Assembly (NCBI GenBank): GCA_947480055.1
Contig: CANKBX010000006.1
Span: 1-37,102, forward strand
DNA from: Planctomycetaceae bacterium
GTDB lineage: Bacteria; Planctomycetota; Phycisphaerae; Phycisphaerales; SM1A02
Direction: 5' to 3'
Length of the DNA: 37,102 nt
Positions 8,712-30,624 of this stretch are shown here, one piece after another (the stretch's first letter is position 1; the number at the start of each line of letters is the position of its first letter). A program made the translations under genes and the position numbers. Under the pieces are notes generated by a model that saw only the letters and a list, made by a program, of their open reading frames with translations, ran no database searches and was not told the origin of the DNA.

Positions 8712-8854
8712 ATCCCACCGCTCTTACACTCGCTTTCATGGGCAAATATCCCTAGAATGGCTCTGTTTCACGGGCAATGCGTCAATTCGTTTTTCACACG
8801 TTTGCCGCGCCATAAAAGCACTATCTTTGAAAGCGACATTTGGAGCATTCTTCA

Positions 8855-11787: not shown

Positions 11788-13056
11788 ATGATTGACATTG
11801 TGATACCGAGTCCTGGAGAAAGCATCACCGAAGTTCGTCTTGGCGCGTGGAAACGCGGCGATGGCGAGTGGGTTGAAAAAGACGATGTCATTACGGAAAT
11901 TGAAAGCGACAAGGCCACGCTGGACATTTTGGCAACGGCTTCCGGCGTGTTGAAAGTTTCGGCGCAAACTGGCGATGACTTGAAAGTTGGCGCAGTTGTG
12001 GCGCGAATTGACGAGAAGGCCACGCGCCCCGCCGGTGCAAGCGCAAAGCCCACAAGCAACGCCGCCCAACCAGCGGCGATCCAAGCCACCAAAGAAAATG
12101 CGCACGCACAAAAGGAACTTTCTGGCTCCGCCGTTGTTGAACCCAAAGTCACCAGCGTGGCACGCAAGATGGCCGTGGACAAAGGCGTTGATCTTGGAAA
12201 AGTAGAAGGCTCTGGTCCAGGTGGACGCATCACTAAAACAGATGTCGAACACGCGCAGACAGCGCCCGCACCAAGTGCCGCGCCAACTGCGCCGCAACTT
12301 GGCGCTGGCGCCGCAAAAATTTCTTCCATGCCCATGGCTAACAGCGCGCGTGGAATTCGCCGTGAGCGCATGACAAAATTGCGTCAGCGTATTGCCGAGC
12401 GTTTGGTCAGCGCCAAAAATACCGCCGCCATGTTGACCACTTTCAACGAGGCCGACATGAGCCAAGTCATGCGCCTGCGCTCCGAGCACAAGGAGGCCTT
12501 TGAAAAACGCCACGGCACAAGCCTGGGCTTCATGGGTTTCTTCGTGAAGGCCGTGGTTGGCGCGCTGGAAAAATTTCCGCGCCTCAACGCCTTCATCATT
12601 GGCGACGAGGTTGAATACCACGACTACATCGATGTCTCCGTGGCCGTTGGCACCGACAAGGGACTCATGGTTCCTGTGCTGCGCAACGCCAATCGTTTGT
12701 CCATCGCCGAAGTGGAGCGAACCATTCGCGAACTTGCCGTGAAGGCGCGCGACAACAAACTCACCGTTGATGACATGACCGGCGGCACATTCACCATCAC
12801 CAACGGCGGCGTGTACGGCAGTCTTATGAGCACGCCAATTCTCAATCCGCCGCAGTCTGGAATTCTTGGCATGCACGCCATTAAAAATCGCGCGGTTGAA
12901 GATCCAAAAAATCCCGGCCATGTGGCTATTCGCCCAATGATGTATCTGGCTCTGAGCTACGACCACCGCATTGTGGACGGTTCTGAAGCTGTGGGATTTC
13001 TAGTGGATATCAAGAACGCAATTGAGAATCCAGAGCGCTTGTTGTTGGATGTCTAA
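11788..13056 (+). CDS. sucB: Dihydrolipoyllysine-residue succinyltransferase (2-oxoglutarate dehydrogenase E2)
   Basis: The 422-residue E2 core protein transfers succinyl from its lipoyl arm to CoA. The N-terminal lipoyl domain carries the lipoylated Lys42 in [12 protein letters not shown] flexible Ala/Lys/Pro linker leads to the peripheral E3-binding domain ([13 protein letters not shown] ... [13 protein letters not shown]), a second Ala/Pro linker, and the catalytic domain beginning near [15 protein letters not shown] and ending with SYDHRIVDG, where His393 and Asp397 are the expected catalytic residues. The final PERLLLDV is the canonical E2 terminus. GGAG sits eight bases before the ATG. 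The gene is the last of the plus-strand block and is convergent with ftsI. The [20 protein letters not shown] block identifies the substrate class as succinyl rather than acetyl transfer, by resemblance only. Confidence 0.95.
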
Positions 13057-13125: not shown

Positions 13126-14988
13126 TCAATGTCGATCGGCTTGGTCGCGTTCATGCAAAGCAAGTTTGGCTTGCTTCTCCAGCTGATCCGGCTCAACGCC
13201 CATGTAATTCAGCGTGGCGTCAATGATGTCGCGGCACACGGGTCCCGCGATTGAACCGCCGTAATGTCCCCTGGATTTATCTGGGTCATCAATAACAACC
13301 AAGCACACGATCCGAGGATTCACAAATGGCGCGCCCGCGATAAATGAACTCACATAGCGATCATCAAAGTAGCCCTTGCCTTGACCCTTTGGTTTTGGCA
13401 ATTGCGCGGTGCCCGACTTGCCAAACATTCTGTACATTTCGCTCTGCGCTTTGCGGCCCGTTCCCTCGGTCATCACGCCCTCCATCGCTTCGCGCGCCGT
13501 CAACGCGATCGCCTCTGAAATGACGCGCTTGCTGGGAATTGAATATTGATTGTCGGCGCCTTCGGCTCCAAGAGTCAACCGCGCGGGAACCAAAGTTCCA
13601 TCACGGCAAAATGCCGAGAAAGCCTGCACCATTTGGATTGGCGTCACGCCAATTTCGTGGCCCATGCACACGCTGGTCTGGGTGTACACCGACCATTTTT
13701 TAGGCGACGTGACCAAGCCTTCGCTCTCGCCAGGAATTCCAACACCGCTCTTCTGTCCAAATCCAAATCGTTGCAACATGTTCTGCATGTCTTTAAATTT
13801 CATCCGCTCCGCGGCCGCCGCCATGCCGCCGTTGAGCGACTTCACAAGAACTTTTTGCCACGACACGGGTCCTGGATATTTCACGTCCTCAATCTTGCGC
13901 CCAAACTTTGTGGTGTATGGACCGAAAGGCAGGCGCACAATCGTCTCTGGTTTAAACACGCCAAGTTCCGTTGCGGTGGCCCACACAAATGGCTTGAATG
14001 TGGAACCCGGCTCATACGGATCGGTGACATTGCGATTGCGTCCAAGAGAAGCGCCAAGCGCGCGCGATGGATCGGTGGTGATTTCCTTCCAACCCTTGCG
14101 CGGATTCAGCACGTCGGCCATGGCAAGAATGTCGCCGGTCTGCACATCCATCACCACGGCTCGCCCACCGCCGGCGTTCCATTGCTTCACGGCGGTTTTT
14201 AAAAGTCTCTCGGCAATTTCTTGCGACACCAAATCAATCGACAAGCGAACATCAACTCCATCGCGCGGCGGTTGGTAATCATTTCCCTCAATCCAAAGTG
14301 GCTGGCGTTTTACATCGCGAAGAAACACAAGTTGTCCGTCTTTGCCACGCACTTGCGAGTTGTGCTGCAATTCAGCGCCCGCTTGCCCGCTTTGCTCCAA
14401 ACCAACACGTCCAATCACCATGGCCGCCAAATCTCCAGCGGGATATTCGCGAATTGGTCTGGACTCAATTCCAATTCCAGAAATTTTAAGTTGACGAATC
14501 GCGTCCACTTGCACTGGCGTCAACATGTCCGCGAGTTGCACATAGCGGTCGTCCGCGCGCTGTCGCAACATGGCTTCAAAAGTTTTTGACGACACACCCA
14601 TCGCGCCACCAATCGCACCAGCCGCGTCCCGAAATGGATCTCCAACTGCTTTTGATTCCGGATCCTCGATGTTGCCTTGACGAACGCGCTCCCACCCACG
14701 CTCCCAAATCATCGCGGGATCCGCGAACAATCTGCGCCCCATCAAACTCGCCGCAAGAACGCGTCCCCGACGATCAACAATTTGTCCACGCGAGGCAAGT
14801 TCCGGCGCGGTGCTTCGATGCACGCCCGCCGCGGCCGTAAGTTTGGGATCATCAGTGGTCTTCAACCACGCGACACGCGCGGAAATCGAAAACAAAAGCC
14901 CCGCGGTCGCAAAAATAAGCACGCGGCTCCAAGCGCGAATTCGGCTTGATTGCGACTCAGAAATATTTGAAATACTAAATTGATTCAT
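13126..14988 (-). CDS. ftsI: Peptidoglycan D,D-transpeptidase FtsI (penicillin-binding protein 3 class)
   Basis: A 620-residue class B penicillin-binding protein that crosslinks septal peptidoglycan. It has a short cytoplasmic N-terminus, one membrane helix (about residues 22-42), a dimerisation domain with SRGQIVDRRGRVLA, and the transpeptidase domain with all three active-site motifs: Ser329 in GSTFKPF, SLN starting at Ser384, and Lys524 in KSGTA. No PASTA repeats follow. The start codon overlaps the stop of the FtsL-like gene in ATGA, which suggests translational coupling. It is the last gene of the long minus-strand run; the usual next genes of a division cluster (murE, murF, mraY) are absent, and the next gene is sucB on the other strand. 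Acting as a division-specific rather than elongation enzyme is inferred from rsmH and the FtsL-like neighbour. Confidence 0.92.
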   Translation of the reverse strand: MNQFSISNISESQSSRIRAWSRVLIFATAGLLFSISARVAWLKTTDDPKLTAAAGVHRSTAPELASRGQIVDRRGRVLAASLMGRRLFADPAMIWERGWERVRQGNIEDPESKAVGDPFRDAAGAIGGAMGVSSKTFEAMLRQRADDRYVQLADMLTPVQVDAIRQLKISGIGIESRPIREYPAGDLAAMVIGRVGLEQSGQAGAELQHNSQVRGKDGQLVFLRDVKRQPLWIEGNDYQPPRDGVDVRLSIDLVSQEIAERLLKTAVKQWNAGGGRAVVMDVQTGDILAMADVLNPRKGWKEITTDPSRALGASLGRNRNVTDPYEPGSTFKPFVWATATELGVFKPETIVRLPFGPYTTKFGRKIEDVKYPGPVSWQKVLVKSLNGGMAAAAERMKFKDMQNMLQRFGFGQKSGVGIPGESEGLVTSPKKWSVYTQTSVCMGHEIGVTPIQMVQAFSAFCRDGTLVPARLTLGAEGADNQYSIPSKRVISEAIALTAREAMEGVMTEGTGRKAQSEMYRMFGKSGTAQLPKPKGQGKGYFDDRYVSSFIAGAPFVNPRIVCLVVIDDPDKSRGHYGGSIAGPVCRDIIDATLNYMGVEPDQLEKQAKLALHERDQADRH

Positions 14989-15317
14989 CCGCCAAATTCC
15001 ACTGGGATTGCGTCAGGATCTTTCACGCCTGGCTTTGTTGCCAAGCGCGGTTGCGTTGGTGGCGCGGGCGCGTCCAATCTGTGGGGGATCGGTCTCCATT
15101 GAACCTTCATGGATTCCAACGCCATACGAATGGCGTCGGGTCGAACTTTGGATGCGACCTCCGCTCGAAATCTCCAAATATCCCGTTGTTGTTCGATCAA
15201 TCTCCAATGGGTCCTGGAAATCTTCGCGGCCACTTCATAGCGCTTCTGCCGCATGGCCAGAAGCGCGGTGGACATGATTCCAAGACCCAACAATATGGCG
15301 ATTGCTTTTCCGAACAT
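14985..15317 (-). CDS. ftsL: FtsL-like cell division protein
   Basis: A 110-residue bitopic protein: a very short N-terminus, one membrane helix (about residues 4-21) and then a helical segment rich in charged heptads (RTHWRLIEQQRDIWRFRAEV) ending in an IRMALESM-like helix. This is the architecture of FtsL/DivIC-type proteins, which scaffold the septal synthase and whose sequences diverge widely. Identification rests mostly on position, directly before ftsI and after rsmH, as in many division clusters. AAGGA sits seven bases before the ATG. The stop overlaps ftsI by four bases. A Pro-rich C-terminal tail of about 35 residues extends past the coiled coil. A homology search would probably give only weak hits, so the name should be taken as likely rather than proven. 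Confidence 0.7.
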   Translation of the reverse strand: MFGKAIAILLGLGIMSTALLAMRQKRYEVAAKISRTHWRLIEQQRDIWRFRAEVASKVRPDAIRMALESMKVQWRPIPHRLDAPAPPTQPRLATKPGVKDPDAIPVEFGG

Positions 15318-15333
15318 GGTCCGGTCCTTGAAC

Positions 15334-16344
15334 TCAGTTTGTTTTTGGAAGTTTGATGGTCATTCCGGGCGACAGCGCTGCGGGATCCGAAAGAGAGGAT
15401 CCGTTGGCGGTAGCGATATCTTTCCACTTGCTTGACTTGCCCAATTTTTTCTTGGCGATTGAACCAAGCGTGTCGCCTTTTTCCACAACGTACAAGTCAT
15501 CGGTCGATCCCGCATTATTTTCTTTGCTGGATGATTTTGTGAACGCGCTCTTTGCGCCAGCGCCACTCTTGGACATCGAAACTTCAATCACGCCAGTCGG
15601 ATTGGCCGTGGCGCGTGGACTCATTTCAACACTCGCAATATCCGCCGCCGCAAGCAGCGGAATTTCTTGAGCCGGCTTGGAAGTCTGCGTGTTCAATCGA
15701 AGCGCCGCATTCTCCTGCTCTTGTGGAGTAGTACTCACACGCGCGCCCTTTGTTGTTGAAGCCACCACCGCACCGTGGCGAAGTTGCTCCACTGGGGGCA
15801 GGCGCAATGTCACGCCTTTACGTAATTTTTCAGGGTTTGGCAGCGCTTTTTTGTTGTATTCAGCCAGTGCCTTCCATAAAGAACTATCACCATATGCCGC
15901 CGCGCAAATGGAATATAAAGTTTCACCCACGGCAATCGGGTGAAGCTTCACGCCAGGTTCGCCTTCTTGCACTTTTACAGTGTTGGCAATTTCAACAGTG
16001 GCGGGAGCGATTCCCTGATCAACGTACGGCACATTTGAAATTGGGCGAACGCTTGGGTTGGCCGTGGGCGCCACAGTCTCTGATGTATTTTTATTTGAAA
16101 CCGTGCGAAGATCGCCTGGCGCGTTTACCGCGATCAATTCGGCTGGTTGCACTGCGGTCACGCCAGCAATTGGAACCGCCGTGATAGAGATGGGTCTACT
16201 CCCATGTTCTCTTACTCGATCCTTGCTCGCCAGATTCGCAGTTTCTTGTCGTTGCGCGGTGCTGAAGTGATCGCTCACCAGAATGCCCACAAAAAGAAGC
16301 AAGCCGAATCCAACAACCATCGCCAATTTATTTTCTCGTGTCAT
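15334..16344 (-). CDS. Membrane-anchored protein with two LysM domains
   Basis: A 336-residue protein with one membrane helix near the N-terminus (about residues 7-25), a long polar and Thr/Ala/Pro-rich linker, and two LysM domains: residues about 133-185 (VGETLYSICAAAYGDSSLW) and 282-333 (VEKGDTLGSIAKKKLGKSS). LysM domains bind N-acetylglucosamine-containing glycans, mainly peptidoglycan, so the protein probably sits in the periplasm holding the wall. The ATG at 16344 is chosen because AAGGA lies six bases upstream; an upstream ATG at 16404 is in frame but lacks such a site. It lies between rsmH and the FtsL-like gene, where most division clusters have no extra gene. No catalytic domain is seen, so a scaffold or adaptor role is the best guess. 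Confidence 0.85.
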   Translation of the reverse strand: MTRENKLAMVVGFGLLLFVGILVSDHFSTAQRQETANLASKDRVREHGSRPISITAVPIAGVTAVQPAELIAVNAPGDLRTVSNKNTSETVAPTANPSVRPISNVPYVDQGIAPATVEIANTVKVQEGEPGVKLHPIAVGETLYSICAAAYGDSSLWKALAEYNKKALPNPEKLRKGVTLRLPPVEQLRHGAVVASTTKGARVSTTPQEQENAALRLNTQTSKPAQEIPLLAAADIASVEMSPRATANPTGVIEVSMSKSGAGAKSAFTKSSSKENNAGSTDDLYVVEKGDTLGSIAKKKLGKSSKWKDIATANGSSLSDPAALSPGMTIKLPKTN

Positions 16345-16468
16345 TTCGCATCCTTGCGTTGTGGCAATCTTGATTTTTTGAGTTCTTGAAAGCCCGTTGT
16401 CCATTTACAAACTTTTTTCAACACCTGTGATCGGATCTCCATCCGATATTCAATCCCAACCAAGCAAC

Positions 16469-17515
16469 CTATATACCAACAATCCGAATCGATCGAAGCT
16501 TGGCGGAGCGAGCTCTTGGATTCGCTTCGCATTCCACTTCGCTTGCAACCAAAGGCTTTCGCGCACATCGGGTCGCCCATCCTTGGCGTTCCCAATCAGT
16601 GAAAGCCCTTTTAATCAATCGGTCTTCTAGGCTGTGGAACGCCAAAATTGCTATGCGAGTATTTTTGGCCAGCCAGTTGCTTGCTGACTCGGTTGCGACA
16701 GGGTTTTGAATCCCGCCATGTACTGCATGCGGATGGCCTGCCACAAACCTAGATTCATTCCCCGAATCCGCATTTGGCACTGGCCAAAAAGTAGCGATTT
16801 CCCGCTGAAATACAGCCAAAAGCGTCTCTAATGACTCCAATTCTTTATTCACCGCAATGCGCAACGCCATAAAGGTGCGAGTAGCAGGATGCATGCGACT
16901 TTGGCGGGCCTTGCCCCCATAGGCGGACACCACCGCTTTGGCTAGATCCGCCGTGGTTTTGAGCAACCCGAGGTCACGAACATAGATAATTCGCCGCGCA
17001 ATTCGCCTAGAAAATGGATCTTCACCCAGTTGAAAGATCAAATCGGCCAATTCGGACTCGGAAACGCGAGCCAGCAACGCGTGGGCGCTTTCGCCTTTAC
17101 TTTGATCCAGTCGCATATCCAAGGGACCAGCCGTTGCGAATGAAAAACCACGCGCTGGATCGCTCATTTGATTGCTGGCAAATCCAAGGTCCGCCATAAA
17201 AGCATCGGCGCGCAATGATTCACCACGCAACACCTCAGCCACGCTGGAAAAGTTGGCGTGAGCCGCGATCACGCGCGGCGCGTTTGGCAGACTTCGAACG
17301 CGCTCGCTTGCAAAGGCAAGATTATGTTGATCCAAATCCAACAGCACCAAAGTTCCCTGGCTCCCAATCACTTTGGCGATGGCTTGTGCATGACCGCCTC
17401 GACCGGCAGTGGCGTCAACCACGGTGTTGCCAACTTCAAGCTCAAGCCCCTGCACAATTTCTTGCAACATCACCGGCTGATGATCAATGATGTCGCCATC
17501 CGAGTGATCCAACAT
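16469..17515 (-). CDS. rsmH: 16S rRNA (cytosine1402-N4)-methyltransferase
   Basis: RsmH (MraW) methylates C1402 in the ribosomal P site. The 348-residue product shows the family landmarks: HQPVMLQEIVQGL, the SAM-binding VDATAGRGGHAQAIA, the segment DLGFASNQMSDPARGFSF leading to GPLDMRLDQ, MHPATRTFMALRIAVNKEL, and ILAFHSLEDRLIKRAF. ATG at 17515 is preferred over an in-frame ATG at 17587, because it overlaps the stop of the WecA-like gene as TGATG, a standard coupling arrangement, while the longer form would overlap that gene by 73 bases. The normal leader gene mraZ is missing, and its place is taken by polysaccharide genes. An insertion of about 30 residues before the last helix makes it longer than the 313-residue E. 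coli protein. Confidence 0.94.
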   Translation of the reverse strand: MLDHSDGDIIDHQPVMLQEIVQGLELEVGNTVVDATAGRGGHAQAIAKVIGSQGTLVLLDLDQHNLAFASERVRSLPNAPRVIAAHANFSSVAEVLRGESLRADAFMADLGFASNQMSDPARGFSFATAGPLDMRLDQSKGESAHALLARVSESELADLIFQLGEDPFSRRIARRIIYVRDLGLLKTTADLAKAVVSAYGGKARQSRMHPATRTFMALRIAVNKELESLETLLAVFQREIATFWPVPNADSGNESRFVAGHPHAVHGGIQNPVATESASNWLAKNTRIAILAFHSLEDRLIKRAFTDWERQGWATRCARKPLVASEVECEANPRARSAKLRSIRIVGI

Positions 17516-18822
17516 CACGCGTTCTTTTGCTCTTGAGCAATCTTCATCTTGCCAGCTTGGCTTATGGCATGTTGTTTTTTCATCCACTCATGGCGCCGCG
17601 CCCGCTTGAGTGCGAATGTCACAACAAGTAAATACGCGGCAAGAACGCCAGCCATCACAACAATGCCCTTGACGTTGGTCAGCAACAACATGGCTGACAA
17701 ACCCACACCCACAATTGTGAAGCCGGCGGCTATGGCATACAAAGCAAGCACAGTCTTTCGAACATTCCCGCCAAAATACCGCTTTAATCTGTGGTGTATA
17801 TGGTTGCTATCCGCGTCGGACATGGAAAGACCGGCGGCTTTCCTGCGAATAATCGCCAGGGTGGTGTCCAAAATTGGCAATCCAAAACAAATCAACCCCG
17901 CCACGGAATACTTTGTGGTTCCATATTCGCCAAAAGTCATAATAATCACAACACTTAAAAAGCCAATCAACAGGCTTCCACAGTCGCCAAGAAAAATAAT
18001 GGCAGGATTGAAGTTGTAGGGCAAAAATCCAAGCGTAACGCCTACTAGAATTAAACTAAGAATAATCCTCGTTCCAGCCAGGCTTGTTTCTGGATTTTCC
18101 ACGGGCAATGTATACGCCATTATTAAACTAATCGCCAAAAATCCAAGCGCCATGATTGTGGTTGTTCCCGCCAGAAGGCCATCCAAACCATCGATTAAAT
18201 TGGCCGCATTACAGCCGCCAATCACAAATACTGCGGTGATACCAGTGCCAATCCAGTAATAGAGTTCTGAATTTGGAACACTGAATGCTCCAATGGAAAA
18301 TAAAATATCCTTCGGCTCGCCGCAAATTGCCGAAAGAACTCCGGCGGCCAATTGCGGACCAACATCCTCTATAGCCAACGCGGCGGCGGCAATAAGTTGG
18401 CCAGCAATTTTAAGCCGGGGATCCCATTTCCAAATATCATCCGCAAATCCAGTGAACATAATCGCGAACATTCCAATCACAATACTGATTGGAATACCCT
18501 GCAAGAGCGCCGCTTGGCCGCTGGAAAAAATGGCGCTTACCCCAATGCCAACCAATGTTCCAACGAATATCGCCAATCCGCCCAAATACGCGATTGGATA
18601 TGCGTGCTGCTTCCGTCCTTGATCTGGATGATCAATAATATTGGTGGCAAGTGCCACGCGCCTGACAATAGGCGTGGCCACAAGAGTAGCCACCAGCGCA
18701 GCAACAAATGCGGGCATGTATGCGGACAGAAGTTCAAGCGGCTTCAGAACCGTCCATGTGGAAATATCACTACCTTCTGGGGCGATCGGAATAACAGCGA
18801 ACATGGAGATTCCTTGCATCAT
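17515..18822 (-). CDS. WecA/TagO-like polyprenyl-phosphate glycosyl-1-phosphate transferase
   Basis: A 435-residue polytopic membrane enzyme of glycosyltransferase family 4, which loads a sugar-1-phosphate (commonly GlcNAc-1-P) onto undecaprenyl phosphate to start an exported polysaccharide. Motifs are the GFADDIWKWD magnesium/diphosphate site (Asp128 and Asp129), NLIDGLDGLLAG, FLGDCGSLLIGF, and the C-terminal cytoplasmic HIHHRLKRYFG. The HIHHRL form separates WecA/TagO-type enzymes from MraY, so despite lying next to rsmH this is not the lipid I synthase. The start ATG overlaps the epimerase stop as ATGA; a second ATG follows at once. The stop overlaps rsmH as TGATG. It is probably the initiating enzyme for the glycan exported by the Wza/Wzc-like pair upstream. 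Confidence 0.9.
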   Translation of the reverse strand: MMQGISMFAVIPIAPEGSDISTWTVLKPLELLSAYMPAFVAALVATLVATPIVRRVALATNIIDHPDQGRKQHAYPIAYLGGLAIFVGTLVGIGVSAIFSSGQAALLQGIPISIVIGMFAIMFTGFADDIWKWDPRLKIAGQLIAAAALAIEDVGPQLAAGVLSAICGEPKDILFSIGAFSVPNSELYYWIGTGITAVFVIGGCNAANLIDGLDGLLAGTTTIMALGFLAISLIMAYTLPVENPETSLAGTRIILSLILVGVTLGFLPYNFNPAIIFLGDCGSLLIGFLSVVIIMTFGEYGTTKYSVAGLICFGLPILDTTLAIIRRKAAGLSMSDADSNHIHHRLKRYFGGNVRKTVLALYAIAAGFTIVGVGLSAMLLLTNVKGIVVMAGVLAAYLLVVTFALKRARRHEWMKKQHAISQAGKMKIAQEQKNA

Positions 18823-19820
18823 GCTGCGCGCTCCCCTTTACATACAACGCCCAACAGGGCCGCAATATCTGCGATCGTTATGTCCAATGCGATTCGTGGC
18901 GTGAAATGAATCGCACTGCGAATGCGTTCCAAATTGGGTTGTCGCACCTGGAGATCTTCAAACCCTTTTCCAAAAATTTTCTCGTGCGGCACGTTCAGTA
19001 TGCGCGAAGAAGACTCGGTCACGCGAATCACGTGTTGCGCCAAAGCCTGCATTGAAATCATTTGGTCGGATCCAATGTTGAACACTCGGCCCAAACATTC
19101 ATCAGCCGCGAGTAATTTCACAAGAGCGGGCGCGATATCCCGCACATCACAAAAACAGCGCTGCTGCGTGCCGTCGCCATGCACTTCAAGGGGCTTGCCC
19201 GCCAGTGCCGCCTGAATAAATCGTGGCAACACCATGCCCCAATCTCCTTTTTGGCGTGGTCCCACTGTATTAAAAAACCGAATTATCACGGCTTTCAAAT
19301 TCGATTCTTTTATGGCCGCAAACGTTAGGAATTCATCGAGCGCTTTGGAGTATCCATAACTCCACCGGGAAGAAGTTGTTGGCCCAAACACAACATCATC
19401 GGACTCTGAAAATGGAATACGAACGCCTTTGCCATACACCTCGCTGCTCGAAGCCACCAAAAACTTCGCCTGATCCCGTACCGCCCACTGAATTGCGGCG
19501 CTTGTCTCAAGCACGTTGGTTTCTATTGATTGGCTTGCTCGCTCCACAATCAATCGCACTCCAACAGCCGCGGCCAAGTGATATATCTCTGCAAAGCGTG
19601 GCAGTTTAGATAATTGAGAAGCCGCAGAAACTGTGGCGTGAACAAATTCCAGCCGATCAGCAAACAGCCGCTTGGCATGTTCTAAATTTTCCAAGGCTCC
19701 AGTCGACAAGTCGTCGACAACCGTAACGCGGTCTCCGCGCAGCAGTAATTGCTCCACCAAATGGCTTCCAATGAATCCCGCACCACCCGTTACAAGAATG
19801 TGTTGCGGGTTTGTATTCAT
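18819..19820 (-). CDS. NAD-dependent nucleotide-sugar epimerase/dehydratase
   Basis: A 333-residue extended short-chain dehydrogenase. The Rossmann motif TGGAGFIGSH is at residues 11-20, the acidic NAD-ribose contact in VDDLST follows strand 2, SSSEVYG gives the catalytic serine region at about 124-130, and Tyr155 and Lys159 form YxxxK. Relatives include UDP-glucose 4-epimerase, dTDP-glucose 4,6-dehydratase and UDP-glucuronate decarboxylase; the sequence seen by eye does not settle which sugar is made. It lies eight bases after the Wzc-like gene and overlaps the WecA-like gene by four, so it most likely supplies the activated sugar for the same polysaccharide. Confidence 0.88.
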   Translation of the reverse strand: MNTNPQHILVTGGAGFIGSHLVEQLLLRGDRVTVVDDLSTGALENLEHAKRLFADRLEFVHATVSAASQLSKLPRFAEIYHLAAAVGVRLIVERASQSIETNVLETSAAIQWAVRDQAKFLVASSSEVYGKGVRIPFSESDDVVFGPTTSSRWSYGYSKALDEFLTFAAIKESNLKAVIIRFFNTVGPRQKGDWGMVLPRFIQAALAGKPLEVHGDGTQQRCFCDVRDIAPALVKLLAADECLGRVFNIGSDQMISMQALAQHVIRVTESSSRILNVPHEKIFGKGFEDLQVRQPNLERIRSAIHFTPRIALDITIADIAALLGVVCKGERAA

Positions 19821-19828
19821 GGATTTCT

Positions 19829-22093
19829 TTATGTTGCGCTCGGTTTCGCACCATCACCTGGCAACAATTTATCTTTCGCCACGCCGCTTGCTGACATCTG
19901 AAATGCGGATGTGGAAATTGCGTATTGCGCGATCGCTTCGGCGTTCTTTTTAAAGTATCCACCCGCCGTGTTCTTGGGTCTATTTAAAATTGTGCCCAAG
20001 AAAATACATTTGCATTCCATTAATTGATACGCCAACTTTGCGACCAATCCTTTTTGATCTTGCCAAGCTCGAACCACAAGGATTGCGGCATCAACTTTGT
20101 TGGCAAGGGCCAAGCCTTCACCAGCCACAACGCTTGGCGGCGTATCTAAAAACACGCGGTCATAATTCTGATGGCACCAATCAAGAAATGCGTCCATTTT
20201 ATCCGTGTTTAGAAGTTGGAATGAACGATTGGACGGCACGCCCGCTCCAATAAAGTGCAATCCATTTCCAATATCAACCACTGTGTCGGCAGGATTTGTG
20301 CCATTTAAAATATCACCTAGGCCCGGCAATAACGGATTCAACCCTAGCGCCTTGGCCAAACCAGGTCTGCGAAGATTGGCGCCAACGATCAAAGTCTTTC
20401 GCCCCACGGCCGCTTCACATGCGGCCAAGTTGATCACAATCGCAGTGGTGCCAGAATCAGGCATGGGGCTGATCACCAGAACAATTTTTGCATTGGTTGG
20501 AGCGAGCCCCTTGGCAATCAAGGCGCTGGCTTGCCTAAAATTCTCCGCGGTCATTGAATGCGGTTCTTCAAGCACAACAGACTCCGCCCGCTTTGGCTTG
20601 GTTGGATCATCGGCAATATCAGGAATGACGCCAAGAATCCTTCCCGGCAAGGCGACTAAATCACCGGGGTATTTCACGCGCTGATCCAGCAATTCACGAA
20701 TGAACAAAATAAACACATACAAACCGCAAATCACAACGGCTGTTCCAGGAATCATGAACTTTAATTGCGGGAAAGTAATTTCACGGGGCTTGATGGCTTT
20801 CTGAATAAATTCGACACGACGAGATTCGTCGCGCAATCGAGCCAGTTCTAGATTATTTATGGTTTGACCAACTTCTTTGCGCTGGGCTTCGACTTGGCTT
20901 AACTGCTCGCGCAATGTGCCAAGTTCGGCCATGTTGGCGGTGAATTCCTCTGTCTTTTTTGAGTCTGAATTAAATTCCTCAATTTGCTTTTTCAGCAAGC
21001 TCTTCAAAGACTCCACTTTATTGATGGCGCCACGTAAATCTGAAAGTTTATTACGGCTAATCACCTCGTCACGTTTGTTGTTGCGCTGAGTCACAATCGA
21101 ATCGCGCGCGGCTTTTAATTGCAACACTTCCGCGTGCGTGTCCTCAAATTGAAGCTTGGCTGCTTCATAGCGACGCGACAGATCCTCTAAATCGCGATTT
21201 AAATTAATCATCACCGTGTCATTATCCGCCTCACGCAAATCTTCTTCGGATAAACTTTCAGCGTTGCTTTGTTTTTTCTTCGCCTGATCAAGGCGGGACT
21301 CAGCCACAGAAAGTTCGCTGGTCGTGCCGGCAATGCCATCCCGCATTTTTTCCAGAGACCTTGTATTTTCACTCGATACCTCATTCAGACTTGTCATACC
21401 CTTCTGCTTGACAAAATCCTGGATTTCAAGTTTTTTTGCCATTGTTTGCTTATATAAAGCGTCTTCATTATTTTTAAACACATTCAACGTTGCCGCAAAC
21501 CGACTATTTTCGCTATTGCGTGTTTGTTTGATATAAGAATCCGCGATGGCATTCAACACCACGGGCACATCCTCTGGGACATTCGCAGTCCAACTGATAT
21601 AAAAAATCTGGGTGCCACGCTTGTGCCCGGCGCGCAAGTCCTTTTCGAGTTGAGTGGCGGCTTCATCAATATTAAATAAATTATTCTCGTCCCGATACCA
21701 CGAAGATTGGCTCCATTGTGTCTTTTGCACATCGTTATTTTCTAGGGCCTTCTTCAAATTCTCCCGACTCATCATTCTTGCCACTTCGGTTTGAGCCAAT
21801 CGAATCACTGATTCTTCCGTACCCAATTCCTTAGCGTTTAAATCAGACGCGGACTCCAATTGGCTTCGAATTTCCAAATAAGCCGTACCGCTCCAAATGG
21901 GATACACATAAAGAAATACATAATTTAAAATCACACCAAGAATCGCACCGCCAAACAAGGCAACAACAATGCCAATCGTGTTTTGCCGTATCAGGCGAAT
22001 CGGATCTATTGATATGGCCGCCGCACGCTGCCGTGGTTGGGCGGCATTGGGCTTTGCGGGTGTGTTTGGTGTTGGAGATAGGGCTCGACTCAT
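19829..22093 (-). CDS. Wzc-like chain-length determinant with a degenerate BY-kinase domain
   Basis: A 754-residue inner-membrane protein of the polysaccharide co-polymerase class. It has a Wzz domain with membrane helices at about residues 39-62 and 446-466 and a long coiled coil between them (about 240-435), then a cytoplasmic P-loop domain from about 505. Where tyrosine autokinases have a Walker A of the GxGKT/S type, residues 542-551 read SPMPDSGTTA, with threonine for the lysine; Walker A' (TLIVGANLRRPG, about 567-578) lacks its aspartate; Walker B (DRVFLDTPPSVV) is kept. Only two tyrosines, 713 and 724, occur near the C-terminus, not a Tyr cluster. The fold is therefore clear, but kinase activity is doubtful. 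It lies 17 bases after the TPR gene. Confidence 0.88.
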   Translation of the reverse strand: MSRALSPTPNTPAKPNAAQPRQRAAAISIDPIRLIRQNTIGIVVALFGGAILGVILNYVFLYVYPIWSGTAYLEIRSQLESASDLNAKELGTEESVIRLAQTEVARMMSRENLKKALENNDVQKTQWSQSSWYRDENNLFNIDEAATQLEKDLRAGHKRGTQIFYISWTANVPEDVPVVLNAIADSYIKQTRNSENSRFAATLNVFKNNEDALYKQTMAKKLEIQDFVKQKGMTSLNEVSSENTRSLEKMRDGIAGTTSELSVAESRLDQAKKKQSNAESLSEEDLREADNDTVMINLNRDLEDLSRRYEAAKLQFEDTHAEVLQLKAARDSIVTQRNNKRDEVISRNKLSDLRGAINKVESLKSLLKKQIEEFNSDSKKTEEFTANMAELGTLREQLSQVEAQRKEVGQTINNLELARLRDESRRVEFIQKAIKPREITFPQLKFMIPGTAVVICGLYVFILFIRELLDQRVKYPGDLVALPGRILGVIPDIADDPTKPKRAESVVLEEPHSMTAENFRQASALIAKGLAPTNAKIVLVISPMPDSGTTAIVINLAACEAAVGRKTLIVGANLRRPGLAKALGLNPLLPGLGDILNGTNPADTVVDIGNGLHFIGAGVPSNRSFQLLNTDKMDAFLDWCHQNYDRVFLDTPPSVVAGEGLALANKVDAAILVVRAWQDQKGLVAKLAYQLMECKCIFLGTILNRPKNTAGGYFKKNAEAIAQYAISTSAFQMSASGVAKDKLLPGDGAKPSAT

Positions 22094-22110
22094 AGAATTT
22101 GTCTTTCAAT

Positions 22111-25100: not shown

Positions 25101-26883
25101 TTTGGGCGAGAGCTTGAATAATTAAAACCGTGTTTGGGTTTGCCGCCAAGTCTTTCGCGAGTACTGCGATTGCCCCGTCATAATCCTTCTTCATCATCGC
25201 CCGCTCCGCCACGCCTATCACGGTGCTGATTCTGGCGTAATCCAATTCAGCGGCGTCTTTTGTTTTGTTATTGATTCCCCTACTTAATCGCTCAAGAGAG
25301 TCCTTGGCGGTTTTGTCATCTGGATTCAATTCCAACAACTTCGCCAGGGATTTGCGGGCGTCGTCCAATTTTCCAATGCCTTCGCTTAATCTTGCGCTGA
25401 GATTGATGAGTGGCGGGTAATTTGGATAGCGCTCAAGGCCACGGTTCACAAGCGACAAGGCTGTTCCAGGTTGATTGCGTAAAATATTTGCGAACGCGGC
25501 GTAAAAATACAACTCTTGAGTTGGATCTGGATTCTTTTTCAGCAGCGCTTCAAAGCGCAATGCGGCGTCATTGGCGTTGCCTTGAGCGAGGGCTGTGCGC
25601 GCCTCGATGTCTTCAACCATCAAGGGAAGAGCTTGCGTGTTGAAAAACTTGACCACCTTGTCGCGCATCTGAAGAACAACCGCAAGCTTGTCTTTTTTTT
25701 CCGTTTCATCGACCGACTTGCGCCAATCTTCAAAGGCAAGCGTGTATAACAAATCAGCCGCGGATTCACGGGCGCCCTGCTGAGACAATGACTCAATTGA
25801 AGTTGGCAAATTGGGTTGAATAAAAACTGTTTCCGCTAATTCCCTACCAATTCCCGTAGACATGCTTCGCGCGAGATTCAAATAGATCTGCTGCGTGACC
25901 GCATCATTTGGAAATTTCTTGAGATAATCCTCAATTAATTTCATGGCCTGCATGTTCGATTCAAACGACGCGCCACTAAACATTGCGCCCGCGGCGGCAA
26001 GAGTTAATTTTCGATCGTTTGTGATGCGGGGAGCCGCATCCAATATAGTTTTGTAGGCGGCGTCCAAGTCGACCTTGTTCACTGTGCCTTCGCGGCTCAC
26101 CACCATCTCCTTGAGTCGTTTCACCAACGCCACGGACGCGGCAATTCCGTCGGGATTCGTCTTCTTGCTGGCCACCAAGGCGTTGTCAAATTGGCGGTAA
26201 GTTTCACCCGCCAAAACTTTTTGATTGCCGCGCTCTTGCGACTGCGCCTTGTTCAGGAGATAGTCCAAATACGCAATCCACATCCGATCATTCGTTGGCA
26301 AGAGTTGGACAACTTCTAAAAATTCCTTGTCGAGGGCTTGTTGCTCCTCGATTGTCAATGTGGAAAAACGCTCCGATGCGCCAAGCGCGCTCCAAAATTT
26401 CGCCAATGCGCGGGCTGGATCTTCGGGGGCAAGCGCTTTATCCATTTGACCCGCGGTGTTGGAAAATTCGCGCCACAACACCTCCGAACGCGCAAGTTCG
26501 CAACGATCGCGCAAGGTTTCCATTGCCTCGATCCAAACCGCGGGATCGGTTTTTGTCGCACGCGTTCTCGCAAGCCGAAGCGTGAGCAGTCTGCCGTAAT
26601 TTTCGTTCGCTTCACTTTCGGATTTAGGAACCAGTTTGACCAATGCTTTATTCAGGGCATTGAGATAGGTGATGTTGTTGGGTTTCTTGGAAACGGCGCG
26701 TCCGTAGTAACTGACTGCCTTCTCTATATTTCCGGATTCCATATATTGGTTGCCGGTATTAAAATTACGCTCAGGACCGAGAACAATTTGGTAATAGTAA
26801 ATACCGCCAATAAATAGCGACCCGAAAACAGCGACCGACATAAAGAGCAGGAAAAATTTAGAGTTGAATTTGCGCTTTGCCAT
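22111..26883 (-). CDS. Giant membrane-anchored TPR protein of the exosortase locus
   Basis: A 1590-residue protein with a basic N-terminus, one membrane helix (about residues 10-31) and then almost continuous tetratricopeptide repeats to the end. Repeat signatures such as GNIEKAVSYYGRAVSKKPNN near the start and NFTKSISLFEQAIQLAPNNA near the end follow the alternating small-residue pattern of the 34-residue unit. With the positive N-terminus inside, the TPR solenoid would be in the periplasm. TPR proteins named PrsT occur in PEP-CTERM/exosortase loci; this one is in the matching neighbourhood but is longer, and I cannot confirm membership. TPR solenoids bind partner proteins, so a scaffold for export, assembly or sorting is plausible. 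It starts two bases after the EpsI-like stop. No catalytic motif was seen. Confidence 0.85.
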   Translation of the reverse strand: MAKRKFNSKFFLLFMSVAVFGSLFIGGIYYYQIVLGPERNFNTGNQYMESGNIEKAVSYYGRAVSKKPNNITYLNALNKALVKLVPKSESEANENYGRLLTLRLARTRATKTDPAVWIEAMETLRDRCELARSEVLWREFSNTAGQMDKALAPEDPARALAKFWSALGASERFSTLTIEEQQALDKEFLEVVQLLPTNDRMWIAYLDYLLNKAQSQERGNQKVLAGETYRQFDNALVASKKTNPDGIAASVALVKRLKEMVVSREGTVNKVDLDAAYKTILDAAPRITNDRKLTLAAAGAMFSGASFESNMQAMKLIEDYLKKFPNDAVTQQIYLNLARSMSTGIGRELAETVFIQPNLPTSIESLSQQGARESAADLLYTLAFEDWRKSVDETEKKDKLAVVLQMRDKVVKFFNTQALPLMVEDIEARTALAQGNANDAALRFEALLKKNPDPTQELYFYAAFANILRNQPGTALSLVNRGLERYPNYPPLINLSARLSEGIGKLDDARKSLAKLLELNPDDKTAKDSLERLSRGINNKTKDAAELDYARISTVIGVAERAMMKKDYDGAIAVLAKDLAANPNTVLIIQALAQIYYIKNDTASALVFLNKALALDPNNTECLRLKVLLNNTDPIDRVLDAIRSMYPDPKDQAVQTYLGLASTLEQLRQANAQIPADQIQPESKAQIQRCEKLMDSAFEAAMAISPNNVKVLEMAAANATMRKDYAGAQKYAQAIQSAGEPGLALTIQSRILVEQEKFQEAIALLQAARQNGEQNPIMLRQLGMLMQKTGNMEAALELIRESYDRRPNDVTTASVYSQFLQQTGDRKKALQILQQAAAVNPENRELLLSLLELESDVGERTKAFGIRKQLYKQNPALSKNSFALAQMLLDTPGDPNLMLDSKGVRKFSDQDLRDANTPKMQQALGIAATANVDEGLDILKFLQETAPNDSVLALMNARALKKYKSVKEGEAALRRDIARVPPEKCVGLWISLGVYLDECGKPEAAQIAFDEAKKNQDPKIMFSNVQIADYWFSKSEWAKAREALEDANKAGLVFNASGWMRLSEICNRLRDYDAAENCLSKAESAGATPETLATIEMLRAMNLQGRGESAIVKGDVAQSEKDFDASRAALQRATEILPASPLAWVSLSDFERRMYQRTHDPKRLVAAEQAADRVIEISVGYWPGIRNKELVYLEQDKMNDAIALVDRYLSLAPKNLDARKELIELLTRASNLQRAIEVAQDGARINPRDAEWQTLIGNLYSRKNDLPNATAAFDAAFIIQPDATQLLTAVMQRIRSDKKDWDAAMQLLRTNAKIVATSIKLQILLAVALVNNGQRDSGLLAMRNNYKNIQDGIAAGTLSTDEWGMWYTGLNSCFEKKPQESEAFIKALATNNQFDYWNCLGLATLYTLQGETGLAAAVEILEKAVELAKSSGAKDSNQLQSAALLQAGNLLYVSKNFTKSISLFEQAIQLAPNNAGAMNNAAFIIAQSGGNSQRAVDLARKCVEMSPSTDDFLDTLGFALLRAGKPSEAMDSLQKAILIGQKPSSMIHLAEVFIELKRPMDAKEYLEKAKKQKVTDEQMEEIKVLELKLN

Positions 26884-26885
26884 GA

Positions 26886-27743
26886 TTATAAATTTGCGGT
26901 GACTGGGATTGAGGATTTATTCTCAAGCGAAGGCCAATCTGGAAGACTTCGCATGAGTTGTGGAAGAAGTGACTGAAGCAAATCACTCGAAAGCTGATCG
27001 AACATCGTGATGGCTTTTTGAGGCTGCTCATTCACCCTGTAAGAAAACTGTACCTTGCAATAGTATGCGTAACGATCCGTGAGTCTGAAGGATAAATTAC
27101 GCACGGCCAGGGCCGATGGCGTAAGCGATCCATTTGCGATGAAGAAATAACCGCCAATAAATGTCATATTAGGTTTTTTAGGATCTTGAAAACATGTCGT
27201 GGTCATGACGATGTCGCCAAGCGGAAGATTGACTTTCACCTCCCGGCGCGTCACGGGTTCTTTGACCGTGACCTGTGGATATCTCGCGCCACTGGCGGGC
27301 TGGGTCGGGCCGTTTTGTAAATCCCATTTGGAAGTGTTTAGTTTCTGCGGGCGCAGTTCCGGCTCTCCCCAAATGACTAATCCAGCCGCTCCCCAGCAGC
27401 GCTCCGGCACGTGCGGAACCGTGTCGATCATTCCCGTGTAGTACGCGATATGAACTTGCAGCACTCCACTATTGATATTGTTTTGAAAGACGTAATTGCG
27501 ATCAAGAAATTGACTCGTCCCCAATTCCTCTATTATCGCATCTGAAAATTGCTGATCCTTTCCAGCCTGCTTCCACTCCCCAAGAGTGCTTGGCAATTCA
27601 TCAATTGGCGCTCGCAGCGCGACTGGCTCTTTTTGCAAATACACTTTGAGTTCGGCCATCGCCATTCTGAAACCCAAGCCGCCGATGACCAAGCACAAGC
27701 AGGCCGCGACGAAGGCTTTTTTCTCTTTCATTTCAACTCGCAT
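26886..27743 (-). CDS. EpsI-family exosortase-associated protein
   Basis: A 285-residue protein with an N-terminal signal or membrane helix (about residues 9-30). It carries the EpsI family block: LPSTLGEWKQAG, a YYTGMID-like strand and HVPERCW, with His111 and Cys116. EpsI proteins are often fused to or next to exosortases; their function is not established. The ATG at 27743 is preferred, with AAAGG eight bases upstream, giving an 11-base overlap with the exosortase gene; an in-frame ATG at 27731, just after that gene's stop, is possible. In many bacteria EpsI is the C-terminal part of the exosortase polypeptide; here it is separate. It is followed two bases later by the TPR gene. Confidence 0.85.
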   Translation of the reverse strand: MRVEMKEKKAFVAACLCLVIGGLGFRMAMAELKVYLQKEPVALRAPIDELPSTLGEWKQAGKDQQFSDAIIEELGTSQFLDRNYVFQNNINSGVLQVHIAYYTGMIDTVPHVPERCWGAAGLVIWGEPELRPQKLNTSKWDLQNGPTQPASGARYPQVTVKEPVTRREVKVNLPLGDIVMTTTCFQDPKKPNMTFIGGYFFIANGSLTPSALAVRNLSFRLTDRYAYYCKVQFSYRVNEQPQKAITMFDQLSSDLLQSLLPQLMRSLPDWPSLENKSSIPVTANL

Positions 27744-28674
27744 GAATCTTGCCTTTCATTGGATCCTCTTCCACAAGAAACTTGGAAAGAATCCACAACG
27801 CGGCCAAGTACGAGAAAAATGCGGGGAGCAACCAGACCAAGCCAATCATGTGATGGAATTCTCCAGACATGAAATTCTGATCAAACATTCCCAAAATACC
27901 CAATGAAGCCACGCGCAGCACATTTACAAATATGGAAATGGGAATACCCAAAGCAACCAATAAAATTTGCTGCCACAACTTTGGCAACGACAGGTACGCC
28001 ATTGCGACGCCGAGGGCCAAGAAAGCCACCAACATGCGCATGCCACTGCATGCCTCGGCCACATTCAATTGCATTGGATTACCGTCTTTGAAAATGGTCA
28101 GCACATTTCCAGAAAGATCTGTCTCAATTCCAATCAGATTGAGAAAAACATACGCGCCCTTGGCGGAAATATCCTGCATGCGGTAGGTCACGATATTCAT
28201 CAGACGCTCGCTGACGGTCTGGAAAAAGGCCAACATATAAAAGAGTGGGAACCAAATATATTTCATCCCCGCCCAACCCAGAAGCAACACGCCAATCCCA
28301 ACAAGTGTGATCCCGAAACCAGACGCCCTGATGTTGTGATGGGCCAGCGCGGATGGACCCAAATTACAAATCATGTACCAAGCGATTCCTACAATCATGA
28401 TGGCCAAACCCCACCAAGACGGCCGAAGTGGTTTGGCTAAAATCAATTCTCGTTTTATCCATACAAAGTAGCCACTGGCCAATGGAATAATGAGCGTGTG
28501 TCCCCAATCGGAAGGTTCTCGAAATGCCCACGCCACTTGGTGGACAATCCATTCCCAAAAAACTCCGCCGATGAGAATCAACAGCACGCCGCCCGCGATC
28601 ACCAAAGTCTTTCGAGACACTTCGACCACGCCTTGCGCGCCCGCCAAAAGGGTTGTGTTTGGAATCGAAGTCAT
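27733..28674 (-). CDS. Exosortase (membrane cysteine transpeptidase-like)
   Basis: A 313-residue polytopic membrane protein (about eight helices) with the exosortase/archaeosortase active-site triad: Cys209 in AEACSGMRMLVAF, Arg254 in NVLRVASLGIL, and His274 or His275 in GEFHHMIGL. Exosortases recognise a C-terminal sorting signal of the PEP-CTERM type, cleave or process it, and work with exopolysaccharide genes. No PEP-CTERM protein was found in the window, so substrates are encoded elsewhere. ATG at 28674 is chosen; a TTG at 28713 is in frame, four bases from the Wza-like stop, and would add 13 residues. Neither has a convincing Shine-Dalgarno sequence, so translation may depend on the upstream gene. 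The gene lies between the polysaccharide exporter and EpsI genes. Confidence 0.9.
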   Translation of the reverse strand: MTSIPNTTLLAGAQGVVEVSRKTLVIAGGVLLILIGGVFWEWIVHQVAWAFREPSDWGHTLIIPLASGYFVWIKRELILAKPLRPSWWGLAIMIVGIAWYMICNLGPSALAHHNIRASGFGITLVGIGVLLLGWAGMKYIWFPLFYMLAFFQTVSERLMNIVTYRMQDISAKGAYVFLNLIGIETDLSGNVLTIFKDGNPMQLNVAEACSGMRMLVAFLALGVAMAYLSLPKLWQQILLVALGIPISIFVNVLRVASLGILGMFDQNFMSGEFHHMIGLVWLLPAFFSYLAALWILSKFLVEEDPMKGKIHAS

Positions 28675-28716
28675 AGTTTGAATCACGCAATGAAAGGCAG
28701 CTACTTCATCCAATAA

Positions 28717-30624
28717 TTAATTGATATTCACGCCAGTCGGCGGAGCTCCAAAGACGTCGTTTCCAAAGTTGCGATCCAGTTGAAAGCCGACCGAATTTGG
28801 GAAGGACAAATCGCGACGGAAACGCGCCAACGGCAAGGCCCAGAAGTTGGTTCCAACAATGACGTGGTCGTCTGGCTTTAGAAAAAGATCGGGCTCGGCG
28901 CGGTTGCGAATAGCAGCCAAACTAATGCGAACGCAGGCTTCTTTGTCACTTCCAAGTCGGCGAATTAAATCGCATCGCTCAGGAATTGCAAGTTCGCTTA
29001 CGCCACCCGCCGCCGCAACCAAGCGGCTTAAAGTCAATCTTCCGGATGTTGGCAAATTATAAACTCCGGGGCGACTAATTTCACCGTCGATATACACCAC
29101 TCCAACTTGTCCCGAATCACAATAAATTAAATCGCCGGGTCGAATCACGATATTTAAATTTGCTTGGCCCCGGACTAAATCGTTGTATGAAATGTCAATC
29201 ACGACGGATTTTTCTTGCTTGGCTATCACGCGCTTCGTGCGTAACTCTTGCGCAGCCTCGTTGGATTTTAATTTGGCGCCCTCGTCATCTGGCGATGTGA
29301 TGTTGCTTGTGTTGGTTGATGTTGCTGACCCAGTTGCGTTGACAGGCTCGGAATGATTAGGTATTGCCGTGACGGCGGATTTTCGAACCCATGATTGCGA
29401 GGCGTTATCAAAAATATATTGATCCCCAGTTGTGGCGTCCAAATTATTCACAGCGGGTGGCGTGTCACCATTTTGGCCGACACGGTCATCGGTTTTGGCT
29501 TGCTCAAGTTCATCAATATCCACTGGCGGAGCCTGGCGACTTTCCGAACGCAGCAATCCCAATTGCGTTCGTCGTTTCGACGGCTCATTTGCGGGATCTT
29601 GTACCGGCGGCGCGGTTGGTGCTGGTGTCGCCGTTGGATCCGCGCTTGCAGGATGTGAAATTGGCGGCGAGGTTGGTGCTGGCGTTGCCGTTGGATTCGC
29701 GCTTGCAGGAGCTGAAGTTGGCGGCGCGGTTGGTGCTGGTGTCGCCGTTGGTGCTGGCGTTGCCGTTGGATCCGCGCTTGCAGGAGCTGAAGTTGGCGGT
29801 GCGGTTGGTGCTGGAGCGCTAGCGCTGGGCAATTCATTAATCAACTGATCAATATCGCTTGCGGTTGGAATTGCTGGAGCTGGGTTTGCAGTGGGGGTTG
29901 GACTTGTTGCTGCTGGAGCGACCAAATCCTTGGAAGCTGTTGGCGACGCGGTTACCTCCGCAGCGTCCACCGGTTTTTTATTATAAAGCGCTTTGTTTTC
30001 TTCAGCGATAATTTCTCGAGTCACTAAAATTCTAGTGGTACTTGAACTTGCTCCCCGAGCAGTTGCTAAAGCATCCAGCAGCCGAAGATCTGGCTTGTTC
30101 AGCGCATACAGTCCAGGTTGGTCAACGGAGCCGAGAATGCGAAACTGAAATGCGCGACCTTCCGTCAACGCCACAAAGGCCTTTGGGTTTTTAATAATTC
30201 CCTGTAACTTTTCCTCAATACTTTTCTGAAGCTCTTCCGTGGTCCTGCCCGCGGCGCGAACTTTATTGATCACGGGAAGTTGAATATCTCCAGTTTGATC
30301 CACCACTCGTTCGGCGATTTCTGTTTGCCCGGTTTGCATTAGGCTTGGAATTTGAACCTTCAGCACATCGCCTGGAGCGAATCGATATGACAAGTCGCCA
30401 GGCTTTAAATCCGCTGGTGTTGGATTGACGAATTCGGGACCATCACTCGCCTGCTCTATGACATCAATGCGATTCAAAATCGGCATTGCCGATGGCGTTG
30501 TTTCAAAGTAACCAGTGCGGCTTGGATCGACAAAACTGTCCGTTTCGCAGCCGCCGAGAATGGTCAATGCCACCAAGGAGAAAATAGGAAAATAAATGAG
30601 GGACTTTAGCAATGGATGGAACAA
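28717..30624 (-). CDS. Wza-like polysaccharide export lipoprotein with a disordered insert
   Basis: A 635-residue outer-membrane polysaccharide exporter. Residues 9-25 are a signal peptide ending in LTILGGC, a lipobox with Cys26. The polysaccharide export domain follows (about 76-155, with FAPGDVLKVQIP and GDIQLPVINKV), then SLBB1 beginning at ILGSVDQPGLYAL (163). SLBB1 is broken after VTRE (203) by about 260 residues rich in Ala, Pro and Thr, and resumes at KSVVIDISYNDL (472) through IRPGDLIYC. A second SLBB (VYIDGEISRPGVYNLP, 510-590) ends the protein. The frame begins with TTG at 30624, with no Shine-Dalgarno seen; another TTG lies four codons on. It is the first gene of the eleven-gene minus-strand run. 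Export role is by family; the insert is discussed as a finding. Confidence 0.85.
   Translation of the reverse strand: MFHPLLKSLIYFPIFSLVALTILGGCETDSFVDPSRTGYFETTPSAMPILNRIDVIEQASDGPEFVNPTPADLKPGDLSYRFAPGDVLKVQIPSLMQTGQTEIAERVVDQTGDIQLPVINKVRAAGRTTEELQKSIEEKLQGIIKNPKAFVALTEGRAFQFRILGSVDQPGLYALNKPDLRLLDALATARGASSSTTRILVTREIIAEENKALYNKKPVDAAEVTASPTASKDLVAPAATSPTPTANPAPAIPTASDIDQLINELPSASAPAPTAPPTSAPASADPTATPAPTATPAPTAPPTSAPASANPTATPAPTSPPISHPASADPTATPAPTAPPVQDPANEPSKRRTQLGLLRSESRQAPPVDIDELEQAKTDDRVGQNGDTPPAVNNLDATTGDQYIFDNASQSWVRKSAVTAIPNHSEPVNATGSATSTNTSNITSPDDEGAKLKSNEAAQELRTKRVIAKQEKSVVIDISYNDLVRGQANLNIVIRPGDLIYCDSGQVGVVYIDGEISRPGVYNLPTSGRLTLSRLVAAAGGVSELAIPERCDLIRRLGSDKEACVRISLAAIRNRAEPDLFLKPDDHVIVGTNFWALPLARFRRDLSFPNSVGFQLDRNFGNDVFGAPPTGVNIN
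29599..29823. repeat. 57-base minisatellite in the Wza-like gene
   Basis: About four imperfect copies of a 57-base unit encode the 19-residue block APTAPPTSAPASADPTATP, including one shortened six-residue copy (APTATP) and a truncated end copy. Third-codon-position differences and an Asn for Asp change separate the copies. The block is part of the disordered insert of the exporter, and copy number is likely to vary. Confidence 0.8.

Follow-up and report, generated by a model that had tools for sequence, protein, structure and literature searches.

Opposite orientations of an rsmH-LysM-ftsL-ftsI block between sucAB and an exosortase/polysaccharide gene run in a family of Phycisphaerales

The DNA analyzed here is a 37,102-nucleotide stretch (positions 1 to 37,102 of contig CANKBX010000006.1, assembly GCA_947480055.1; hereafter the window) from a Planctomycetaceae bacterium of the GTDB family SM1A02 (Phycisphaerales). 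In the window, four genes, rsmH-LysM-ftsL-ftsI (hereafter the block), form the end of an eleven-gene minus-strand run whose upstream members are exosortase and exopolysaccharide genes, and rsmH directly follows a gene for a WecA-like polyprenyl-phosphate sugar-phosphate transferase (wecA below). We found that the same four genes are tightly joined behind this polysaccharide gene in one clade of the family and behind the Krebs-cycle gene sucB in its sisters, with the flanks otherwise unchanged. We propose, at a probability of about 0.72, that the operon next to the block drives its expression, that it was ancestrally the tail of sucAB, and that an in-place inversion re-plugged it behind wecA. 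Operon membership is often taken as a sign that genes work together, and the contrast between the two arrangements offers a clean natural comparison on whether operon partners matter, in bacteria with FtsZ-free division.

The survey for rsmH, the WecA-like protein, and SucB covered 181 genomes of the family. An rsmH match was obtained in 171 genomes, and the place of rsmH was tabulated for the 150 in which it stood among the matches listed; only genomes with wecA or sucB among these matches were classed, and all counts of tabulated genomes are to be read within that scope. In 77 of the 150 genomes, rsmH was immediately preceded by the WecA-like gene on the same strand, and sucB lay upstream within 1 kb in 37, while the 36 with neither combine contig breaks, unlisted matches, larger gaps, and true differences. 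The 77 genomes are of different species and span 11 genera of one clade. These genera hold 83 genomes with a listed rsmH. The WecA-like gene shares the rsmH contig in 78 of them, and 77 of those 78 retain the junction; in the sole exception, G114, about 4.4 kb separates wecA from rsmH. Gene order in relatives had been named as a check on the junction in an earlier, sequence-only reading of the window (the first-pass annotation), and the junction passes it. Elsewhere in the family, sucA-sucB usually precedes the block (36 of 50 genomes). The wecA to rsmH junction is not peculiar to the window and is probably a secondary arrangement.

Gene placement by tblastn at 94 fetched loci of the family revealed two mirror-image orders, both directly observed. 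In orientation A (41 loci including the window), the order is TPR-wzc-(epimerase)-wecA followed by rsmH-LysM-ftsL-ftsI, as far as each stretch reaches (TPR, tetratricopeptide repeat), and a convergent sucB follows ftsI in 33 of the 41. In orientation B (13 loci from the six genera g3, g7, g14, g43, g56, and g61; genome G202 is of this type at its fetched locus), sucA-sucB is followed by rsmH-LysM-(ftsL)-ftsI and then by convergent wecA, (epimerase), and wzc. Compared with the window, the sister genera therefore have the same block and the same flanks, but the block is reversed and sucB replaces wecA upstream of rsmH. Since the flanks are otherwise collinear, the four-gene block alone was inverted. 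A further 31 loci, 30 of them from other genera, have sucB before the block and no wecA in the stretch; the g14 locus G028 is counted here, its wecA gene having given no match. Eight loci were unclassable and one (G034) is special. Orientation was uniform within every genus among the classed loci. In the genome table, 11 of the 17 genomes from B genera had no listed wecA on the rsmH contig, and the other six had wecA convergent downstream. Among named records, 79 wecA loci comprised 27 in orientation A, seven in orientation B, and 45 without the block in the stretch, with wecA still beside wzc or TPR genes in 24 of the 45; many of these loci come from the same genomes as the family set and are not additional independent counts.

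The sucB-first order is likely to be ancestral, as it recurs through the genera lying outside A and B in a five-gene FastTree, some of these genera being unclassable. In a seven-gene tree of A, B, and outgroup genomes, state A needs one change, and a single origin was recovered in 78% of 200 bootstrap trees. A single in-place inversion that moved the block from sucAB to the exosortase/polysaccharide operon is therefore modestly supported, the alternative being two.

The block seems to have undergone a second in-place inversion. In genome G034 (locus L065), a gene for an NtrC-type sigma-54 response regulator lies directly upstream of rsmH, and sucB is convergent behind ftsI. At 14 other loci, a homologue of this regulator gene lies beyond ftsI in convergent orientation, at a distance of no more than 330 bp in 10 and of 1.1-3.7 kb in four.

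At the junction itself, a candidate rsmH start overlapped the wecA stop (by -4 or -1) in 31 of 39 readable junctions, the window included, and in 10 of the 11 genera, versus 6 of 40 readable junctions behind sucB. Six of 84 loci were unreadable (four behind sucB; behind wecA, one without the motif and one with a misplaced match), and in two readable sucB junctions (G201 and G203) the sole candidate was a TTG 11 nt inside sucB, which is outside the 6 of 40. The spacing on the two sides of the block also differs in orientation A: the gap between wecA and rsmH did not exceed 250 bp in 40 of 41 loci, whereas that between the convergent ftsI and sucB was this short in only 15 of 33 and exceeded 3 kb in 6 of 33. 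A tight co-directional and a looser convergent gap would look like the pattern expected of an operon junction under selection, in rows that share descent. In the window, the genes of the run lie on the same strand with short gaps or overlaps, as those of a single operon would. Translational coupling of rsmH to the transferase gene had been asserted in the first-pass annotation; the TGATG on which that claim was based is present and recurs as a candidate overlap in relatives, and coupling as such is likely. Judged from the sequence, the run is likely to be one operon with translational coupling at this point.

We regard the block as a conserved wall/division cassette of these FtsZ-less bacteria and envisage the following course of events. 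In the ancestor of the family, the block would have stood at the end of a sucA-sucB operon; later, an exosortase/polysaccharide cluster would have come to lie tail to tail with it, and an in-place inversion of exactly four genes would then have put the block behind the WecA-like gene. In the window, the block would now form the downstream end of a polysaccharide operon of eleven genes. Transcription would start before the wza-like gene (or at internal promoters) and read through to ftsI, and ribosomes finishing wecA would restart at the overlapping rsmH start. Co-transcription, reinitiation, and a block without a strong promoter of its own are what we infer from the arrangement.

Several observations weigh against this reading. 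The single origin of orientation A has a branch support of only 64/47 in the seven-gene tree, and the quick five-gene tree needs two changes, with outgroup rows that are not on one side. The second flip comes from one genome of about 20 contigs, whose sister G035 has 3.7 kb between ftsI and the regulator gene. The 31 overlaps are candidate starts that share descent and do not count as independent events, and eight readable A junctions show none: six are from the window's own genus and two from genus g50, where the nearest candidate starts are about 40 and about 4270 bp behind wecA. The tail-to-tail side of the B loci is still tight (ftsI-wecA gap no larger than 340 bp in 12 of 13), and since it has not loosened, tightness alone is no proof of an operon. 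Inside wecA there is also a promoter-like site (a 9-of-12 match at 17966-17939, about 420 bp before rsmH) and there are several terminator-like sites on the minus strand (the nearest at 17650-17637), all from scans at noise level: we counted 12 promoter-like sites versus 18.8 in shuffles, and 30 terminator-like sites versus 26.5. The first-pass annotation had held that a strong promoter or terminator between the WecA-like gene and rsmH, with no read-through, would argue against a link; the scans do not contradict read-through, but with matches at noise level they are uninformative on the question. The ftsI-sucB gap, folded as a terminator, did no better than shuffles.

Alternatively, the block may carry its own promoter, within wecA or at the head of rsmH, and owe its place to the accident of inversions. 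Such neutral hitch-hiking would account for an upstream gene that varies by lineage (sucB, wecA, or the NtrC-type regulator) while the block is kept and for the 1-3 kb between sucB and rsmH in some genomes, and the promoter-like site inside wecA could serve it. We nevertheless consider it unlikely, though a possibility to be taken seriously, given the candidate overlap in nearly all A genera, the smaller number of insertions upstream than downstream of the block in A loci, and promoter-like sites that are rarer than in shuffles. Nor was there a dip in synonymous divergence in the last 40 codons of wecA (0.42 versus 0.45 overall; a weak test for a hidden promoter), the value of 0.29 for the last 20 codons resting on 17 comparisons, which are too few sites. 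A different proposal, made in the first-pass annotation, is that co-expression balances undecaprenyl phosphate between the two pathways or directs secretion, here of exosortase substrates, to the site of division. Polyprenyl phosphate is used both by WecA-type enzymes and in the wall pathway, and the conservation of the junction through a deep clade, together with an overlap that is commoner behind wecA than behind sucB, would suit such a pairing. It is compatible with expression borrowed from the neighboring operon, as the reason for it, but it found no specific support, because the block's earlier neighbor was metabolic: in the six sister genera and beyond, the block follows sucB, which has no lipid link. 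Moreover, RsmH methylates rRNA and does not act on the lipid pool, mraY and the Mur ligase genes are on other contigs with none in the run, and the polysaccharide cluster and the block also occur apart. Balancing of the lipid carrier is not needed to explain the arrangement, and the pairing with sucAB in other parts of the family argues against such balancing having given rise to it; we regard this proposal as improbable.

The apparently repeated inversion of the same four genes, at least twice and each time between inward-facing neighbors, also raises the idea of a programmed switch by which members of one population would alternate the block between two operons. We consider this very improbable, as inverted repeats from edge to edge of the block in 46 loci had a longest match of only 8-11 nt and exceeded the best of 20 shuffles in one locus only, no recombinase was found among the 28 window open reading frames (ORFs) scanned with Pfam, and orientation does not vary within a genus among the classed loci. 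An assembly or binning artefact in one metagenome-assembled genome is conceivable for an assembly of 2.22 Mb in 195 contigs that is 82% complete, but the recurrence of the junction in 77 genomes of different species, and in 27 named records from several projects (many being the same genomes as the family set), leaves it next to no probability. Separately, the window contains a perfect 16-nt inverted repeat at 12974-12989 (the end of sucB) and 18741-18756 (the start of wecA), away from the block edges.

Returning to the inversion of the block from sucAB to the polysaccharide operon, a bolder and rather doubtful extension would be a functional operon swap, in which the output of the cassette was moved from central carbon metabolism (sucAB) to surface-polysaccharide/exosortase control, selection kept the coupling to wecA, and in another lineage the cassette was put behind a sigma-54 regulator gene. 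If this were true, the LysM membrane protein would belong, as a so far unnamed component, to an FtsZ-independent machine for wall growth or division.

We found a LysM ORF between rsmH and ftsI in all 111 loci of the order with both ends placed (89 in the family and 22 outside it), with a LysM profile built from the LysM stretch of the window and from matches among the same ORFs that were later counted. In the class outside the order, LysM adjoins rsmH in nine of nine main rsmH loci, with ftsI in the stretch in six of the nine; a second rsmH copy in G367 (L279, C1:2492807-2493709) has no LysM or ftsI in its 9-kb stretch. Outside the class, a LysM ORF stands behind rsmH in 4 of 28 longer loci (f26, 3 of 3; f54, 1 of 5) and in none of 29 short loci, seven genomes being shared between the two sets. 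The four loci rule out that LysM in the cluster is a class-specific trait, and the gain of the gene may be older or repeated. The LysM ORF of L293, L294, L295, and L282, from planctomycete families outside the class, is longer. We put forward the LysM protein, present in each of the 111 loci, as a candidate for a role in wall growth or division without FtsZ in the order. Among close relatives, the first 40 codons of the LysM gene show low synonymous divergence (0.20 versus 0.34 gene-wide), possibly a regulatory element.

The first-pass annotation had described a division and cell wall (dcw) cluster that lacks its usual leader mraZ, with rsmH coupled instead to the sugar transferase gene. Although mraZ does not precede rsmH in the run, it is present in the genome at C7:32045-32425, as confirmed with Pfam, and two adjacent Mur ligase genes and mraY are on contig C4, which also carries a second class B penicillin-binding protein gene adjoining an FtsW/RodA gene. 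Relatives agree: mraZ and rsmH share a contig in seven, at least 144 kb apart, and the remaining relatives with both genes carry them on separate contigs. With mraZ, mraY, and the Mur ligase genes on other contigs, a replaced leader is not borne out, and the division genes of the window are those of a long-split dcw cluster, not of one with a swapped leader. FtsZ (TIGR00065) was found in none of 61 genomes of the family and order, the window's own (82% complete) among them, while 13 of 14 control genomes gave a match; its absence is expected for Planctomycetota from the accounts in PMC5147048 and PMC12283558.

The window resembles a dcw cluster in having rsmH before ftsL before ftsI on one strand, head to tail, with ftsL and ftsI overlapping. 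It differs in the dispersed mraZ, mur, and mraY genes, in the convergent sucB behind ftsI in place of murE, murF, and mraY, in the LysM gene between rsmH and ftsL in a genome with no ftsZ found, and in the attachment of the block to a polysaccharide operon. For the dcw cluster of Planctomycetota, the excerpts of PMC5147048, PMC12283558, and PMC8871954 describe gene loss and cluster splitting, not such an inversion. Titles and abstracts of the literature searched held no description of the inversion or of a LysM gene in a dcw-type cluster.

Loci of the PEP-CTERM type usually comprise exosortase, EpsI-like, Wza-like, Wzc-like, PrsT-like TPR, and polyprenyl sugar transferase genes. The window likewise has all of these in one run, but several parts, the TPR protein and the kinase among them, score under equivalog cut-offs, and the run ends with four wall/division genes. 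A search of the window's own genome for PEP-CTERM substrates (PF07589) gave no match, though no control gave one either.

The features of the window are listed in the table. All eleven ORFs of the run were found where the first-pass annotation had placed them, from 30624 down to 13126; its limit of about 65 bases on the gaps holds, with a largest spacing of 64 nt between rsmH and LysM, and its overlaps are exact (11 nt between the exosortase and EpsI genes, 4 nt each between epimerase and wecA and between ftsL and ftsI, and the TGATG of wecA and rsmH). Its confidence in the gene identities was justified, with two qualifications: ftsL drew no family match, and the WecA-like protein, a PF00953 member, scores under both the WecA and the MraY equivalog cut-offs. 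Pfam and NCBIfam support the other identities.

Features of the run and of the adjoining sucAB genes (positions in the window)
Feature	Position	Strand	Evidence
Polysaccharide export protein, Wza-like (Poly_export + SLBB), first gene of run	28717..30624	-	Pfam PF02563, PF22461, PF10531
Exosortase, EpsH family	27733..28713	-	PF09721, 155 bits; NCBIfam TIGR02602 over cut-off
EpsI-like protein (DUF3485), overlapping exosortase gene	26886..27743	-	PF11984, 34 bits (cut-off 26)
TPR protein, PrsT-like, 1590 aa	22111..26883	-	TPR families; TIGR02917, 209.5 bits, under cut-off 312.2
Wzc-like chain-length protein/tyrosine autokinase	19829..22093	-	TIGR03018, TIGR01007, TIGR01005, each under cut-off
NAD-dependent sugar epimerase/dehydratase	18819..19820	-	PF01370, PF16363
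WecA-like polyprenyl-phosphate sugar-phosphate transferase	17515..18822	-	PF00953
wecA/rsmH stop/start overlap TGATG	17514..17517	-	Stop codon 17515-17517; rsmH ATG begins at 17516
rsmH (mraW), head of block	16469..17516	-	PF01795, 261 bits; TIGR00006 over cut-off
LysM protein	15334..16404	-	PF01476, one stretch; NF008399, two stretches; hydrophobic N-terminal stretch by eye
ftsL-like small membrane protein, 110 aa	14985..15317	-	Place between rsmH and ftsI; N-terminal hydrophobic stretch
ftsI, class B penicillin-binding protein, end of block	13126..14988	-	PF00905, 193 bits; PF03717
sucB-like E2 gene, convergent with ftsI	11788..13056	+	PF00198, PF02817, PF00364
sucA (2-oxoglutarate dehydrogenase E1), partner of sucB	8840..11752	+	PF00676, PF16870

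The ftsL-like protein had no family match in Pfam or NCBIfam, and the name is given for its position, its size (110 residues), and a single hydrophobic stretch; assignment of ftsL by its place between mraW and ftsI is a practice described in PMC8871954. As listed, the rsmH ORF opens at 17587, and the ATG at 17516 within the TGATG is the likelier start. The WecA-like gene is distinct from the MraY gene of the genome, which has two other PF00953 members, at C1 and C4, the one at C4 with MraY_sig1. The nearest named records for the WecA-like protein are lake bins and Phycisphaerales, and include CAIKXA010000067.1 (95% identity) and Phycisphaerales bacterium Baikal-deep-G174 (80%). Beyond ftsI and the convergent sucB, the window continues with sucA, priA, and carA. 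At the other end of the run, pyrB (aspartate/ornithine carbamoyltransferase family, 30798-31742) precedes the wza-like gene by 173 bp on the same strand; the run may therefore extend beyond that gene, and the transcript might begin further upstream.

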